Shown piece after piece: positions 21,456 through 56,494 of a stretch of 64,000 nt of DNA (position 1 is its first letter; each line of letters opens with the position of its first letter). The stretch lies in NCBI RefSeq assembly GCF_014205845.1, contig NZ_JACHCR010000002.1, positions 331,078 to 395,077 of the forward strand, written 5' to 3'. Origin of the DNA: Mucilaginibacter cryoferens. GTDB lineage: Bacteria > Bacteroidota > Bacteroidia > Sphingobacteriales > Sphingobacteriaceae. The position numbers and the translations under genes are program-made. Under the pieces are notes generated by a model. The model saw only the letters and a list, made by a program, of their open reading frames with translations, ran no database searches and was not told where the DNA came from.

Positions 21456-21483
21456 GTAGCCCCCTAACCCCCTGAAGGGGGAA
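21456..21483 (+). repeat. GC-rich 28-bp palindromic repeat, copy A
   Basis: GTAGCCCCCTAACCCCCTGA followed by AGGGGGAA. It is identical over all 28 bases to copy B at the serC stop. The core CCCCCT-GA-AGGGGG is a hairpin. Confidence 0.9.
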
Positions 21484-21611
21484 TGATTATTAATATCAAT
21501 TATACCGAATTTATTTCGACGCTCCACATGTCAGATAGCCATCTGCCAATCACTGTATTGTATTAACGTGAAGGAAATTCAGGACATAAACTGATAAAAC
21601 TTTACATTAAA

Positions 21612-22501: not shown

Positions 22502-23569
22502 ATGAAACATAATTTTGGTGCCGGACCAGGCATTTTACCTCAGGAGGTTTTAAAACAAGCTTCCGAGGCGGTTATTGATTTTAATGGTACAGGATTATCA
22601 TTGCTGGAGATCTCTCACAGATCGAAAGAGTTTGAAGCAGTTTTGGATGAAGCTGTTGCATTAGTGAAAGAATTATTCAGTGTACCAGAAGGTTATTCGG
22701 TATTATTTTTACAGGGTGGTGCCAGCACACAGTTTGCTTTGGCCCCTTATAACCTGTTGCCGTCAACCGGCAAAGCAGCTTATCTGGAAACAGGTGTTTG
22801 GGCAAACAAAGCCTTAAAAGAAGCTAAATACTTTGGCGAAGTAGAAGTAATTGCATCTTCAAAAGATAGCAACTTTAGTTACATCCCTAAAGATTATACT
22901 ATCCCTGCAGATGCGGCTTATTTCCACATCACTTCCAACAATACCATTTATGGTACACAGTTGCAGGAGTTTCCTAAATCACCGGTACCGGTTGTTTGCG
23001 ATATGTCGTCAGATATTTTCAGTCGCAAAATTAACGTTGCCGATTTTGGTTTGATCTATGCCGGTGCACAAAAGAACATGGGCCCTGCAGGTGTTACCCT
23101 GGTAATTATTAAAGATGACCTGTTAGGCAAAGTTGACCGCAAGATCCCAGCTATGTTTAACTATCAAACACAGATAGAAGGTGGATCGATGTACAATACT
23201 CCTCCATGCTTTGCTATCTATGTATCAATGCTTACCCTGCAATGGTTAAAAGCCAAAGGCGGTGTTGACGTTATTGAGCAGGAGAACATTACCAAAGCAA
23301 GAGTTTTATATGATGAGATTGAACGCAATCCATTATTTAAGCCAGTTTGTGCTACCGAAGATCGTTCGAACATGAACGTAACTTTTGTAATGCAAAATGC
23401 AGAATTGGAAAAACCATTCCTGAAACTTTGCGACGAAAGAGGCATAGTAGGCATTAAAGGCCACAGAAGTGTTGGTGGTTTCCGTGCATCAATATACAAC
23501 GCTTTGCCAATAACCAGCGTTTACGCCCTTATCGACGTAATGCAGGAATTTGCAGAAGTAGCCCCCTAA
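22502..23569 (+). CDS. serC: Phosphoserine aminotransferase
   Basis: A 355-residue class V PLP aminotransferase converting 3-phosphohydroxypyruvate to phosphoserine. The N-terminal [10 protein letters not shown], the cofactor-region [17 protein letters not shown], the Asp in [11 protein letters not shown] and the PLP lysine in [15 protein letters not shown] are canonical. The last codons, EVAP and the TAA stop, lie within copy B of the GC-rich palindromic repeat, so the present C terminus is repeat-derived. serA follows 105 bp later, after an inverted second copy of the repeat. Confidence 0.95.
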
Positions 23570-23585
23570 CCCCCTGAAGGGGGAA
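23558..23585 (+). repeat. GC-rich palindromic repeat, copy B, overlapping the serC stop
   Basis: Identical over 28 bases to copy A. Bases 23558-23569 are translated as the serC codons for V-A-P and stop. The remaining half is untranslated. Confidence 0.9.
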
Positions 23586-23632
23586 CAAAAAATATAATAT
23601 TATTTACCTCCGGTGCGCAAGCGAGTTTAATT

Positions 23633-23660
23633 ACTCCCCCTTTAGGGGGCCGGGGGGCTT
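23633..23660 (-). repeat. GC-rich palindromic repeat, copy C, between serC and serA
   Basis: Lies in the opposite orientation to copy B, 47 bp away. It ends 14 bp before the serA ATG. Its reverse complement is identical over 28 bases to copy E inside the cupin gene. Confidence 0.9.
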
Positions 23661-23674
23661 AACTTAATCAGATT

Positions 23675-24625
23675 ATGATCAAAATATTAGCTAATGATGG
23701 TATCGACCCAATTGGAAAACAGCTTTTAGAAGAAGCTGGTTTTATTGTTGATACCAATAATATACCACAGGATGAATTGCCTGTAAGATTACAAGAGTAC
23801 GATGCCATTACTGTACGTAGCGCAACTAAGGTACGTAAAGCACTAATTGATAGCTGTCCAAATTTAAAAGTGATTGGTCGCGGTGGTGTTGGTATGGATA
23901 ATATTGATGTAGAGTATGCAAGGGAAAAAGGACTAAGTGTTTATAATACTCCTGCTTCATCTTCATTATCAGTTGCCGAGTTGGTTTTTGCCAGCTTGTT
24001 TGGCAGCGTTCGTTTTTTACCAGATAGCAACCGCAAAATGCCGGTTGTAGGTGGTACTAAATTTAACGACCTGAAAAAAGCTTATGCAAAAGGTATCGAA
24101 CTGCGTGGTAAAACTTTAGGTATTGTAGGTTTTGGTCGTATTGGCCGCGAAGTAGCTAAGATAGCTATCGGCGTTGGTATGGAAGTATTAGCTTACGACT
24201 TATTCCCTTTTAACCCCGAACTGGATATTGTTTTAGGTGGCGGTACAACTGTTAAAGTAAGTGTAAAAACATCAACTTTAGAAGAAGTAACCAAAGCTGC
24301 TGATTTTATTACCCTGCATACACCATTTATTGACAAAGCGCTGTTTGGCGCCGAAGAATTGGCACTAACCAAAAAAGGTGTAGGTTTTGTAAATATTTCA
24401 CGCGGTGGTTTAATTGACGAGCTGGCTTTGGTCGACGCGTTAAACAGCGGTCAGGTTTCATTTGCAGCTTTAGATGTATTTGATAACGAGCCAACGCCTC
24501 GCGAAGAGATTCTGACACATCCCAAAATTTCTTTAACCCCTCACATTGGTGCAGCCACCAACGAGGCACAGGAAAGAATTGGTGTTGAATTGGCTAATCT
24601 GATCATCGATCACTTTAAAAAATAA
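23675..24625 (+). CDS. serA: D-3-phosphoglycerate dehydrogenase, short form
   Basis: A 316-residue D-2-hydroxyacid dehydrogenase, the first step of serine synthesis. It has the substrate-side TVRSATKVRK, the Rossmann motif GIVGFGRIGREVAKIA, an Arg in NISRGGLIDE, the Glu of DVFDNEP and the His of TPHIGAATNEAQ. There is no C-terminal ACT or ASB domain, so serine feedback through ACT is not expected. It pairs with serC on the same strand, with a repeat-filled gap that may form a long hairpin between them. Confidence 0.92.
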   Translation: MIKILANDGIDPIGKQLLEEAGFIVDTNNIPQDELPVRLQEYDAITVRSATKVRKALIDSCPNLKVIGRGGVGMDNIDVEYAREKGLSVYNTPASSSLSVAELVFASLFGSVRFLPDSNRKMPVVGGTKFNDLKKAYAKGIELRGKTLGIVGFGRIGREVAKIAIGVGMEVLAYDLFPFNPELDIVLGGGTTVKVSVKTSTLEEVTKAADFITLHTPFIDKALFGAEELALTKKGVGFVNISRGGLIDELALVDALNSGQVSFAALDVFDNEPTPREEILTHPKISLTPHIGAATNEAQERIGVELANLIIDHFKK

Positions 24626-52123: not shown

Positions 52124-52158
52124 AGTCTCCCCCTTCAGGGGAGATTTAGAGGGGCTTC
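52124..52158 (-). repeat. GC-rich palindromic repeat, variant H, between argD and argF'
   Basis: AGTCTCCCCCTTCAGGGGAG then ATTTAGAGGGGCTTCT. It is a longer variant of the 28-bp family with a different centre. It is intergenic and ends 2 bp before the argD stop. Confidence 0.75.
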
Positions 52159-53348: not shown

Positions 53349-54392
53349 TTAAAAGCCGGTCGCCTTAAGTCGTAGGCCTGTGCGCTCGTCCAGCCCGAAC
53401 ATTAAGTTCATGTTCTGTACTGCCTGGCCCGAGGCGCCTTTAAGTAAATTATCCATAATGCTGACAATGAATATTTTATTGTCGTGTTTTTGTACCTGTA
53501 TAAAGCATTTGTTGGTATTTACAATCTGCTTTAAATCTATATTCCTGTTGGTTACGTGGGTAAATGGATGCCCCTCGTAATAGTTTTGATAAAGTGCTAA
53601 AGCCTCATCTTCGCTCAAATCACTTTCTGTATATATCGATGCGATTATACCGCGTGTAAAATCGCCGCGATATGGTACAAAGTTGATAGACCTCTCAAAA
53701 TCAGGTTGTAACTGCTTTAACGATTGGCCAATCTCATTTAAATGCTGGTGATTAAATACCTTGTAAACAGATAAGTTATCATTTCTCCATGTAAAGTGTG
53801 ATGTAGCAGCCAAACTCTGACCAGCCCCGGTAGAACCCGTAGTGGCAGTAATATGTACTTCGTTGTTCAATAAGCCTTTTGAGGCCAAAGGCAATAAACC
53901 TAACTGTAAACAAGTGGCAAAGCAACCGGGGTTAGCGATGTTATGGGCTGTTTTAATAGCCTCCCTGTTCAATTCTGGTAAGCCGTAAACAAAGCTTTTG
54001 CTTTTTAGTGTTGAATTTTGATTTAAACGGAAATCCTGACTTAAGTCGATGATTTTTACGCTATCTGGAATTTGGTTTGCATCCAAAAACTTTTTAGCAT
54101 CGCCATGGCCAACGCAAAGAAATAATACATCTACATCCGTGGTGAATTTCGCTGCGAATTTCAGATCGGTATCTCCAAACAAGTCGGTATGTACCTCGTA
54201 AATATAGTTACCTGCATTACTGTTGCTGTGCACAAAAGCGATATCCACATTAGGATGATTGATGAGGATACGCAGCATTTCGCCGCCGGTATATCCTGCA
54301 CCGCCAATGATGCCCGCTTTAATAGCCGCCCGGCCTCCGTTAGCTAACGGAGGAGTTGAACTATTTGTTATGTCTTTTATGTTCTCAGTCAT
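53349..54392 (-). CDS. argC: N-acyl-gamma-glutamyl-phosphate reductase (ArgC)
   Basis: A 347-residue enzyme with the nucleotide-binding GIIGGAGYTGGEML (28-40) and the catalytic Cys157 in NPGCFAT. The normal protein begins just before the GIIGG motif; here about 25 residues precede it, of which TPPLANGGRAA is encoded by a diverged palindromic repeat at 54325-54357. There is no in-frame ATG after the repeat and before the fold, so either the extension is translated or initiation uses another codon. The gene follows the cupin gene with a repeat copy in the 30-bp gap. Confidence 0.92.
   Translation of the reverse strand: MTENIKDITNSSTPPLANGGRAAIKAGIIGGAGYTGGEMLRILINHPNVDIAFVHSNSNAGNYIYEVHTDLFGDTDLKFAAKFTTDVDVLFLCVGHGDAKKFLDANQIPDSVKIIDLSQDFRLNQNSTLKSKSFVYGLPELNREAIKTAHNIANPGCFATCLQLGLLPLASKGLLNNEVHITATTGSTGAGQSLAATSHFTWRNDNLSVYKVFNHQHLNEIGQSLKQLQPDFERSINFVPYRGDFTRGIIASIYTESDLSEDEALALYQNYYEGHPFTHVTNRNIDLKQIVNTNKCFIQVQKHDNKIFIVSIMDNLLKGASGQAVQNMNLMFGLDERTGLRLKATGF
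54325..54357 (-). repeat. Diverged palindromic repeat, copy G, inside argC
   Basis: GCCGCCCGGCCTCCGTTAGC onward; its centre CCTCCGTTAGCTAACGGAGG is a perfect palindrome. In the argC frame it encodes TPPLANGGRAA, closely similar to the TPPLGGRGA encoded by copy E. Confidence 0.75.
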
Positions 54393-54407
54393 AATATCAA
54401 TTATTAT

Positions 54408-54435
54408 TCCCCCTTTAGGGGGTTAGGGGGCAACA
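54408..54435 (-). repeat. GC-rich palindromic repeat, copy D, overlapping the cupin stop
   Basis: On the minus strand it matches copy A/B at 26 of 28 positions. It supplies the cupin codons V-A-P and the TAA stop, just as copy B does for serC. Confidence 0.9.
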
Positions 54436-54824
54436 TCAATCCTGTCATTGTTTGTTGATGGATACGAGTATAAAATAAACTCCAGGTCGCTCCGGTCGTG
54501 ATTGCTGATGAAGTGTTTTTGACCTGGTAATATTTCGATGCCTTGCTCTGGTTTCAAAACTGTTGTTTCTCCATTGATAGAGAAAGTTGCCCGCCCTTTC
54601 AAAATAAAAAACACCTGGGTAGCTTTTTCATGATAATGCAAAGCCTCGGCAGTATCCGGTGGCATTAATTCCTGTTTTACAGATAATGCCTCGGTATCAA
54701 TAAAAGTCCAGCCGTGGCAATCATCGCCCCAGTTATAGTGCTTCAGGCATTCTCCTTTTGAAAAAGCCCCCCGGCCCCCTAAAGGGGGAGTTGGAACGGC
54801 GTTTATATTGTCTTTGTCTGCCAT
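54423..54824 (-). CDS. Cupin-domain protein within the arg operon
   Basis: A 133-residue single-domain cupin: metal-binding motif 1 LHYHEKATQVFFILKG and motif 2 with PGQKHFISN, in a small conserved barrel (about 28-125). Both ends carry palindromic-repeat sequence: residues about 12-20 (TPPLGGRGA) come from copy E and the last three codons plus stop come from copy D. It starts 2 bp after argG and ends 30 bp before argC. Cupins of this size bind small metabolites or metals; a link to arginine synthesis is inferred from position only. Confidence 0.82.
   Translation of the reverse strand: MADKDNINAVPTPPLGGRGAFSKGECLKHYNWGDDCHGWTFIDTEALSVKQELMPPDTAEALHYHEKATQVFFILKGRATFSINGETTVLKPEQGIEILPGQKHFISNHDRSDLEFILYSYPSTNNDRIDVAP
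54764..54791 (-). repeat. GC-rich palindromic repeat, copy E, in frame inside the cupin gene
   Basis: On the minus strand ACTCCCCCTTTAGGGGGCCG then GGGGGCTT, 28 of 28 bases identical to copy C between serC and serA. It is read without a stop as TPPLGGRGA. Confidence 0.92.
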
Positions 54825-54826
54825 AA

Positions 54827-56053
54827 TTAGTTTTGAGCATTGGTTGCTCCCTCTTCAGGGGGCTGTGGGGTATTTACTTTATGATAGATCATTACTTGAT
54901 TACCAAATATTTTAGAGAAACCTTTAACGTCTTCACCGCTCCAGGCATTGTTCATCTCGCCGTAGCTTCCAAATTTGTTCGACATCAGATCGTGATCCGA
55001 TTCAATACCTATAACCTGGAAACGGTATGGATTTAATTGAACAAAAACTTTGCCACTTACATTTAACTGCGTATCGGTTAAAAAGGCCTCCATGTTACGC
55101 ATAATAGGATCATGGAATTGACCTTCATGCAGCCAGTTGCCGTAGAAGGCAGATAACTGATCTTTCCATGATAACTGCCATTTGGTTAACACATGTTTTT
55201 CTAAGGTGTGGTGAGCTTTGATAATTACCATTGGCGCGGCAGCCTCAAAACCTACACGGCCTTTAATGCCTATAATGGTATCGCCAACATGGATATCCCT
55301 GCCGATGCCATAAGGCTGGGCAATGGCCTGTAATGCCTGGATAGCCTTGGTTGGATGATCATATCTTTCGTTATCGATGCCAACCAGTTCTCCTTTTTCA
55401 AATATCAACTCCAGGTTTTTAACTTCAGATTCGGTTACTTGTGTAGGCCATGCTTCTTCTGGCAATCCTAAGTTAGATGTTAGCGTTTCTTTACCACCTA
55501 CAGATGTACCCCAGATACCCTTATTGATAGAATACTTTGCTTTCTCGAAGTTCATTTCCACACCATGATCTTTCAGGTATTGGATCTCTGCCTCACGACT
55601 TAATTTTAAATCGCGGATAGGGGTGATGATCTTTACTTCGGGAACCAAAATGTTAAAGATCATATCAAAACGCACCTGGTCGTTACCGGCGCCGGTGCTA
55701 CCGTGGGCAACAAATTCGGCACCAATTTCTTTAGCGTAATTAGCAATAGCTGTAGCCTGGCTCACACGTTCGGCACTTACCGAAAGTGGATAGGTATTGT
55801 TTTTTAACACATTACCATAAATCAAAAAGCGAACGCAGGTGTTATAAAAGTTTGTAGTTTCATCAACCACGTGGTGCGATGTTACGCCCATTTGGTAAGC
55901 GCGTTCTTCAACTCCTTTTAATTCTTCGTCGCTAAAGCCACCGGTATTAACAATTACCGAATGTACTTCGTAACCAAGATCCTGTGTTAAATATATACAG
56001 CAAAATGAGGTGTCTAATCCGCCGCTGTATGCTAATACTACTTTCTTTTTCAT
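54827..56053 (-). CDS. argG: Argininosuccinate synthase
   Basis: A 408-residue ATP-dependent enzyme joining citrulline and aspartate. The ATP loop AYSGGLDTS (8-16), HGSTGAGNDQVRFD, the IWGTSVGGKE segment and GNWLHEGQFHDP are in place. The body is complete to about residue 393; the last 15 residues (NTPQPPEEGATNAQN) have no family counterpart and match a palindromic repeat (copy F). It follows the S23-type gene in the arg operon and is separated from the cupin gene by two bases. Confidence 0.95.
   Translation of the reverse strand: MKKKVVLAYSGGLDTSFCCIYLTQDLGYEVHSVIVNTGGFSDEELKGVEERAYQMGVTSHHVVDETTNFYNTCVRFLIYGNVLKNNTYPLSVSAERVSQATAIANYAKEIGAEFVAHGSTGAGNDQVRFDMIFNILVPEVKIITPIRDLKLSREAEIQYLKDHGVEMNFEKAKYSINKGIWGTSVGGKETLTSNLGLPEEAWPTQVTESEVKNLELIFEKGELVGIDNERYDHPTKAIQALQAIAQPYGIGRDIHVGDTIIGIKGRVGFEAAAPMVIIKAHHTLEKHVLTKWQLSWKDQLSAFYGNWLHEGQFHDPIMRNMEAFLTDTQLNVSGKVFVQLNPYRFQVIGIESDHDLMSNKFGSYGEMNNAWSGEDVKGFSKIFGNQVMIYHKVNTPQPPEEGATNAQN
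54844..54874 (-). repeat. Palindromic repeat, copy F, forming the argG C-terminal tail
   Basis: On the minus strand TACCCCACAGCCCCCTGAAG then AGGGAGCA, a diverged copy of the copy A type. It is read in the argG frame as T-P-Q-P-P-E-E-G-A. Confidence 0.7.
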
Positions 56054-56059
56054 TCTTTT

Positions 56060-56127
56060 TAGAGGTAAAAGGTTAAAGGCGAAAGGTTTTCGCCCCGTAA
56101 TTTTTGGTAAAAGGTAAAAGGCAAAAA
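56060..56127. repeat. AAGG-rich repeat 5' side of the S23-type gene block
   Basis: Iterated AGGTAAAAGG / GGTTAAAGGC units, including two copies of GGTTTTCGCC. The inverted counterpart lies on the other side of the S23-type gene at 56495-56545. Confidence 0.6.
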
Positions 56128-56128
56128 G

Positions 56129-56494
56129 TTAAAGGTTTTCGCCTCGTAAAAATTTTATAAAGCCAATTAACATGGCTTTTATTTCGTTTATTGCTGTGTT
56201 TGTTTTATGGTAAATTTCCGTTGATATAAATCCCAGGTCGTAAATCAAATAGCAGGTGTATTCCACTTCGTGAGCAGACCCCAAAGCATTGTCAAGGTAA
56301 TGAACAAAATCTTTATCAGTGTTTTTTCCGCGCCCCGCCACGATATTTAAAGGAATTGAGTAGGTGGATCTGCGTAGTTGATTGGTTAACGCAAATCGTT
56401 CGTCGGCTGGCATTATGGGCAAGATATCGGCATACACTTGCTTTGTAAGCGAGTGCGATTTTTTCCAAACATCTAATTTTTTATAATCCCTCAT
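56129..56494 (-). CDS. Four-helix-bundle protein of the S23 / 23S-rRNA intervening-sequence family
   Basis: A 121-residue helical protein with MRDYKKLDVWKKSHSLTKQV at the start, LRRSTYSIPLNIVAGRG in the middle and DFVHYLDNALGSAHEVEYT, the signature of the S23 / IVP family (also related to Avd of diversity-generating retroelements). Function is unknown. It is inserted between the GNAT gene and argG and is flanked by inverted AAGG-rich repeats, so it looks like a small acquired module. On the minus strand it could be cotranscribed with argG. Confidence 0.85.
   Translation of the reverse strand: MRDYKKLDVWKKSHSLTKQVYADILPIMPADERFALTNQLRRSTYSIPLNIVAGRGKNTDKDFVHYLDNALGSAHEVEYTCYLIYDLGFISTEIYHKTNTAINEIKAMLIGFIKFLRGENL

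Follow-up and report, generated by a model that had tools for sequence, protein, structure and literature searches.

A REPIN-like repeat pair at gene junctions of Mucilaginibacter that probably supplies stop and start signals and is probably read into protein ends

How does a palindromic repeat that also lies between genes come to be read in frame near the start of a gene for a cupin? The question arises in the window, the whole 64,000-nt stretch of DNA analyzed here, which belongs to a 6.95-Mb genome, in 64 contigs, of the soil bacterium Mucilaginibacter. Exact copies of the 28-bp repeat occur in it at 23633-23660 (+) and 54764-54791 (-) (n=2), and the 28/28 identity reported for them in an earlier sequence-only reading was borne out against a chance expectation for a 28-bp repeat of 0.00 on average (100 dinucleotide shuffles, up to 3 mismatches allowed). 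Read on the minus strand, 54764-54791 is ACT CCC CCT TTA GGG GGC CGG GGG GCT, or TPPLGGRGA; these are codons 12-20 of the cupin gene, in frame between the ATG at 54824-54822 and the core sequence FSKGEC, which confirms the position between cupin start and barrel that had been proposed.

The same reading took the repeat for a single palindromic element. The 28-bp unit is real, but it is one half of a REPIN-like composite (54764-54873) in which two inverted copies flank a 54-bp spacer, with the cupin start codon between the halves. A scan of the window revealed further copies of inverse orientation near 54764-54791, one of them (54846-54873) within the final codons of argG, and a second composite (54324-54356 plus 54406-54433) that extends across the cupin-argC junction, over the last part of one gene and the beginning of the other. 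No Rfam family matched the element in the window. The features are as follows.

54764..54791, minus strand: right-hand REP of composite 1, which supplies TPPLGGRGA in frame to the cupin N-terminus
54792..54845, minus strand: spacer of composite 1, in which argG stops and the cupin gene starts (ATG 54824-54822)
54846..54873, plus strand: left-hand REP of composite 1, a degenerate copy with 7 mismatches, supplying the argG C-terminal tail NTPQPPEEG...
54423..54824, minus strand: gene for a Cupin_2 protein of 133 aa, whose conserved core excludes residues 1-20
54827..56053, minus strand: argG; relatives align to about residue 394 and the remainder is an element-derived tail
54406..54433, plus strand: left REP of composite 2, supplying the last cupin codons (AP) and the stop
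54324..54356, minus strand: right repeat of composite 2, with a different hairpin stem (CCTCCGTTAG/CTAACGGAGG); in the ArgC frame, TPPLANGGRAA
53349..54392, minus strand: argC, residues 1-23 ahead of the fold common to solved ArgC structures
23559..23586, minus strand: left REP of the serC-like/serA-like composite, supplying the stop of the upstream gene (EVAP, then stop)
23633..23660, plus strand: right REP of the serC-like/serA-like composite, untranslated; the downstream gene begins at 23675
21457..21484, minus strand: single REP, without a partner in the scan
52127..52156, minus strand: lone left REP, degenerate, immediately after the argD stop

The right repeat of composite 2 (54324-54356) and a second site, around position 1501 of locus L273, are the two places in this genome where the palindrome CTCCGTTAGCTAACGGAG occurs; at both it takes the place of the stem of the right REP, as though one hairpin had been exchanged for another. 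Stems similar to the swapped hairpin were also seen at L175 and L119, where they are on the left side.

Elsewhere in the genome, a 27-base core of the repeat has 43 matches with up to 3 mismatches and a sister form of this core has 67, the two sets overlapping. In the stretches of this genome that were examined there are 80 distinct copies with up to 7 mismatches, which as hairpins fall within the 20-40 bp of REPs. Neighboring copies no more than 160 bp apart form 27 pairs, and in 27/27 the two members share a single outward orientation, which is the inverted pairing of REPINs and also gives the composite the terminal inverted repeats of a MITE. A simple ORF script placed 26 of the 27 pairs, one remaining unplaced: the flanking genes are tandem in 15, convergent in 10 and divergent in 1, and 0/26 pairs lie within a gene. 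When 30 copies were checked by eye for a REP tag, the bases beyond the palindrome were variable; GTAG precedes two copies of the window (21457, 23559) and CTAC stands behind the copy in L018, but neither GTAG nor CGTC is the rule. The composite is essentially confined to one genus. A strict pattern matched 55/69 genomes of the genus, including the window's own, with up to 79 copies. Elsewhere in the family it matched 12/232 genomes, at 1-5 copies per genome, and it matched 1/292 extra-genus genomes of a phylum sample that has some genomes in common with the family sample. The backward control of the pattern gave 0 in every sample.

We consider it probable that this element is a REPIN-like junction composite which supplies stop and start signals and is translated at gene boundaries, with a start codon that it either brings along or captures. 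In the arg operon, related loci can be compared with and without the element. Among 81 arg loci (the window and the best 80 of 90), the argG-cupin junction could be judged at 80, L132 having no argG, and carries an intact composite in 20, a degenerate one in 4 and none in 56. The cupin-argC junction is intact in 14, degenerate in 4 and empty in 57, and in the other 6 (L114, L127, L133, L157, L167, L168) it is a gap of about 470-506 bp, seemingly with an extra gene, in which a REP was sought and none found. Filled junctions measure 94-146 bp and empty ones 10-32 bp. At empty argG-cupin junctions, argG stop and cupin start overlap in 41/56, and the cupin start follows at 0-7 bp in the other 15; at empty, directly adjacent cupin-argC junctions the two genes overlap in 57/57, with the argC start in the cupin codons for NDR at the 12 sites inspected. 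By eye, the filled sites have native bases replaced, unlike a clean insertion, and show no constant target-site duplication. The empty junction is probably the ancestral state, because the argG-linked cupin genes of other genera of the family (L183-L187) are without the extension; at L183-L186 a native ATG is followed by the core within a few codons.

The distribution of the element over these loci is scattered. On a tree of argG, cupin and argC, which was built from the neighboring genes themselves (85 rows, 5 of them outgroups, L132 omitted) and on which the six long-gap loci were scored empty at cupin-argC, presence requires at least 15 changes at argG-cupin and 11 at cupin-argC when degenerate rows are excluded, and 16 and 14 when they count as filled. 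Shuffling the labels 1000 times gave means of 18.0 and 13.2, and shuffles were as low as the observed values in 5.0% and 4.6% of cases, respectively. Both junctions carry the composite in the window, and neither does in L111, its nearest relative by path; L183 and L170 are identical across the tree columns. A single old insertion with simple descent is rejected by this scatter at both junctions. Gains, losses and recombination are mixed in it, and the change counts do not separate the three; similar spacers in the window, L096 and L097 suggest a common insertion in those loci.

This scatter bears on the possibility that the composite is a selected RNA element, an intercistronic hairpin that stabilizes or uncouples the operon mRNA, with the translated tail as a side effect. 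The three window composites do fold better than shuffles (z of -3.7, -3.0 and -4.3, the outermost 9 bases having been left off for the second), the stem-loop form is retained at 54324-54356 by way of a replacement hairpin, and divergent neighbors are found in just 1/26 pairs. However, GC-rich inverted pairs fold well by construction, and a near-random distribution on the tree argues against a needed role at the two arg junctions. We regard a selected RNA function as a rather unlikely explanation.

Whether the repeat is translated was approached by comparison of orthologs. Among the 120 listed of 248 cupin homologs, which include one from M. ginsenosidivorax with 93% identity to the window cupin, a short form of about 115-124 aa has a few residues ahead of FSK, and a long form of about 130-151 aa has M, some 10 or more residues and mostly a PP(L/S)GGxGA-like stretch before FSK; some homologs end C-terminally in PPNPLKGE. 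In the comparison of orthologs that the sequence-only reading had proposed, the short orthologs are without the repeat residues and the long ones have them. All intact arg composites (34/34) have an ATG in the spacer that is in frame with the downstream gene, although the spacer lengths vary; by comparison, this is the in-frame reading of a Rickettsia palindromic element (RPE). A start beyond the repeat, which could have undone the proposed cupin N-terminus, was looked for in the window, but between the end of the repeat and the tenth core codon no ATG, GTG or TTG occurs in frame. Such a later start is likewise absent in 14/20 cupin composites and 12/14 ArgC composites. Because the repeat is present in long orthologs but not in short ones, and an alternative start is mostly lacking, the comparison supports a reading of the repeat as protein, each of its strands being read somewhere. 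Changes in the extensions lean weakly to synonymous (36 to 42 in 232 codons, 11 non-independent pairs), a weak hint of coding. In the window cupin model pLDDT is below 50 at residues 1-21 and the barrel is confident, and the first 23 residues of ArgC, MTENIKDITNSSTPPLANGGRAA, precede the fold, since alignments to the 14 PDB sequences matched by ArgC begin at query residue 19 to 27. A translated cupin extension would be expected to yield peptides such as ADKDNINAVPTPPLGGR.

It could be argued instead that the element is intergenic and untranslated, the annotated starts being wrong and the true ones being unusual codons or lying past the REP; NH2-terminal REPs of several species are often suspected to be untranslated (PMC3733652). 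Copies in this genome are mostly intergenic, some genes begin right behind the element (L033, L075, L088 and L027 among them), and a possible later start is retained in 6/20 cupin composites (5 with a TTG that codes for a core leucine, L114 with a GTG) and 2/14 ArgC composites (GTG in L116 and L155). Against this explanation stand the composites in which no later start precedes the core, the preservation of frame in 34/34 despite differing spacer lengths and the synonymous excess in the extensions, weak as it is, so that we consider it improbable.

Composites resembling those of the arg operon were found at other genes. A search of 61 genomes of the genus for an ATG shortly before a REP led to 40 regions, hand-picked by eye (L248 among them is an arg locus again, and L271 is from the window's own genome), and a script found an in-frame cassette in 28/40 and none in 12. 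NCBIfam names could be given to 10 of the cassette proteins: MurD, MurG, LeuB, the TrpG/PabA type, TrpC, HisD, HisIE, HisC, HisH and the 2-phosphosulfolactate phosphatase type, the last with matches below the curated cut-offs. The best family match starts no more than 2 residues from the end of the REP in 8/10, the exceptions being the phosphatase type (at 38) and HisD (at 52). Besides the cupin gene and argC, the window's own genome has the cassette at MurG-, PabA- and ComB-like genes. Right-hand copies are read in three frames, TPP(L/S)GGxGA, KLPLQGAGG (the stretch in MurG) and (N/S)SPFRGxGG, and left-hand copies, which lie at the 3' end of the gene before, give C-terminal readings such as RPPGPLKGE and KPPSPLKGEF. 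Reading direction is set by position, the left copy entering the end of the upstream gene and the right copy the start of the downstream gene, and both strands are therefore open, as had been noted; the opposite strand, for which the open reading KPPGPLKGE had been given, is indeed read, but at 3' ends and C-termini. An element of the Rickettsia type, mobile, palindromic and inserted in frame anywhere in ORFs as a portable peptide, is very improbable, for in spite of in-frame reading in cupin, ArgC, MurD, MurG and others and of two open strands, all coding copies examined sit at N- or C-termini, the three right-hand frames give three different peptides, and none of the 26 placed composites of this genome is a mid-gene insertion, so that the parallel with Rickettsia drawn earlier is not supported.

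For a REPIN-like junction composite, the following account may be given. Two outward REP hairpins around an AT-rich spacer of about 20-110 bp lie in the gaps separating genes, for the most part tandem or convergent ones, and usually just after a stop codon. Where genes overlap or nearly touch, as in argG-cupin-argC of element-free relatives, the composite would split or replace the native stop/start region; the upstream ORF would obtain a stop from the left REP or the spacer, and reading from the spacer ATG through the right REP would give the downstream gene a disordered N-terminal tail. Left REP and spacer stop, together with the spacer ATG, could thus leave the gene pair usable. Translation in the cell would begin at the spacer ATG, and the tail is presumably tolerated rather than useful.

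Some starts seem to be carried by the element and others to be native. In the genome G610, the murD and ftsW-like junctions are alike over about 57 bp but for 2 differences, a stretch that takes in the ATG and the N-terminal codons. At murD the reading frame runs on into the enzyme, and at the ftsW-like junction it stops after 23 codons. At L248, the locus of L119, both arg junctions have the same spacer with its ATG, and at 1600-1690 the ArgC N-terminus runs through two tandem REPs in two frames (KLPLQGAGGQ, then TPPSGGWGA). The spacer of L104 seems to retain native start sequence, which argues against a start that is always borne by the element. Two genomes have a start-bearing spacer at a second junction; as a tentative extension, the composite may be a mobile junction cassette with its own stop and start signals that spreads among operon junctions, parts overlapping genes and creates new downstream N-termini.

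Such an element would have spread by transposition or gene conversion. A link to RAYT transposases is unsupported, since no RAYT flanked by this REP was found: this REP is absent from the flanks of the Y1_Tnp loci of this genome (0/5) and from 30 Y1-transposase loci of the genus (0/30), which were the best-scoring hits, so that weak RAYT-like ones are underrepresented. Genome G201 has 25 strict REP matches, yet no match to the Y1-transposase family. No mobilizing enzyme was found among the Y1 transposases examined. A 142-aa Y1 transposase gene of the window's own genome (L091, about 1241-1916) has around it three copies of a different palindrome, with the core CCCATCGC/GCGATGGG or CCCATCATTATGG, which may represent a REP or IS200-like family of its own.

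REPINs and BIMEs, known from Pseudomonas and E. coli, consist of REPs paired in inverted orientation. The composite resembles them in its two GC-rich inverted hairpins with a spacer, in its tens of copies and in its intergenic position with mostly tandem or convergent neighbors, and differs in that no flanked RAYT was found at the 5 own-genome and 30 genus Y1 loci, in the lack of a general GTAG/CGTC tag in 30 copies and in a spacer with an apparently used start codon at operon junctions. It is like MITEs in being short, with terminal inverted repeats and no internal transposase gene, and unlike them in that no clean target-site duplication was seen and no parent transposon was identified among the Y1 transposases examined. 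RPEs are described as in-frame insertions within ORFs (PMC10969869); the present repeat shares with them a palindromic sequence and in-frame reading in unrelated metabolic genes, and differs in its position at gene ends and junctions rather than in the ORF interior, in its structure as a pair of 28-bp units of about 100 bp and in its gene-dependent frames. PMC3733652 reports REPs that overlap or sit within ORFs of several species and lists a CGTC class for Bacteroidetes. Like the intragenic and terminal REPs it describes, ours overlap ORF ends, supply stop codons and are in some cases read as protein; its NH2-terminal REPs are thought often to be untranslated, whereas filled Mucilaginibacter sites, set against empty orthologous ones, are mostly without a later start. 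The earlier statement that no such system is described in this phylum stands in so far as nothing relevant to Mucilaginibacter or the phylum was found in the open-licence literature searched, but must be narrowed in view of these REPs in and at ORFs.

The same operon junctions with and without the repeat in closely related species amount to a natural experiment, in which start codon and N-terminus are changed in central enzymes (ArgC, MurD, MurG, HisD). The route from repeat to protein, the parting of overlapping genes and the acquisition of N-terminal tails from mobile repeats can thereby be tested. They are also a warning, in that many predicted starts in the genus fall inside repeats.

Two other places in the window deserve mention. 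Just upstream of argG, 56129-56494 encodes a four-helix protein of the 23S rRNA intervening-sequence type (PF05635), and two 38-bp repeats that are 84% alike lie around 56063-56149. At 1832-2228, three 115-bp repeats with 141 bp spacing, 75-78% alike, lie at the end of a secreted hydrolase-like gene and presumably code for repeated QW-rich lectin-like units.
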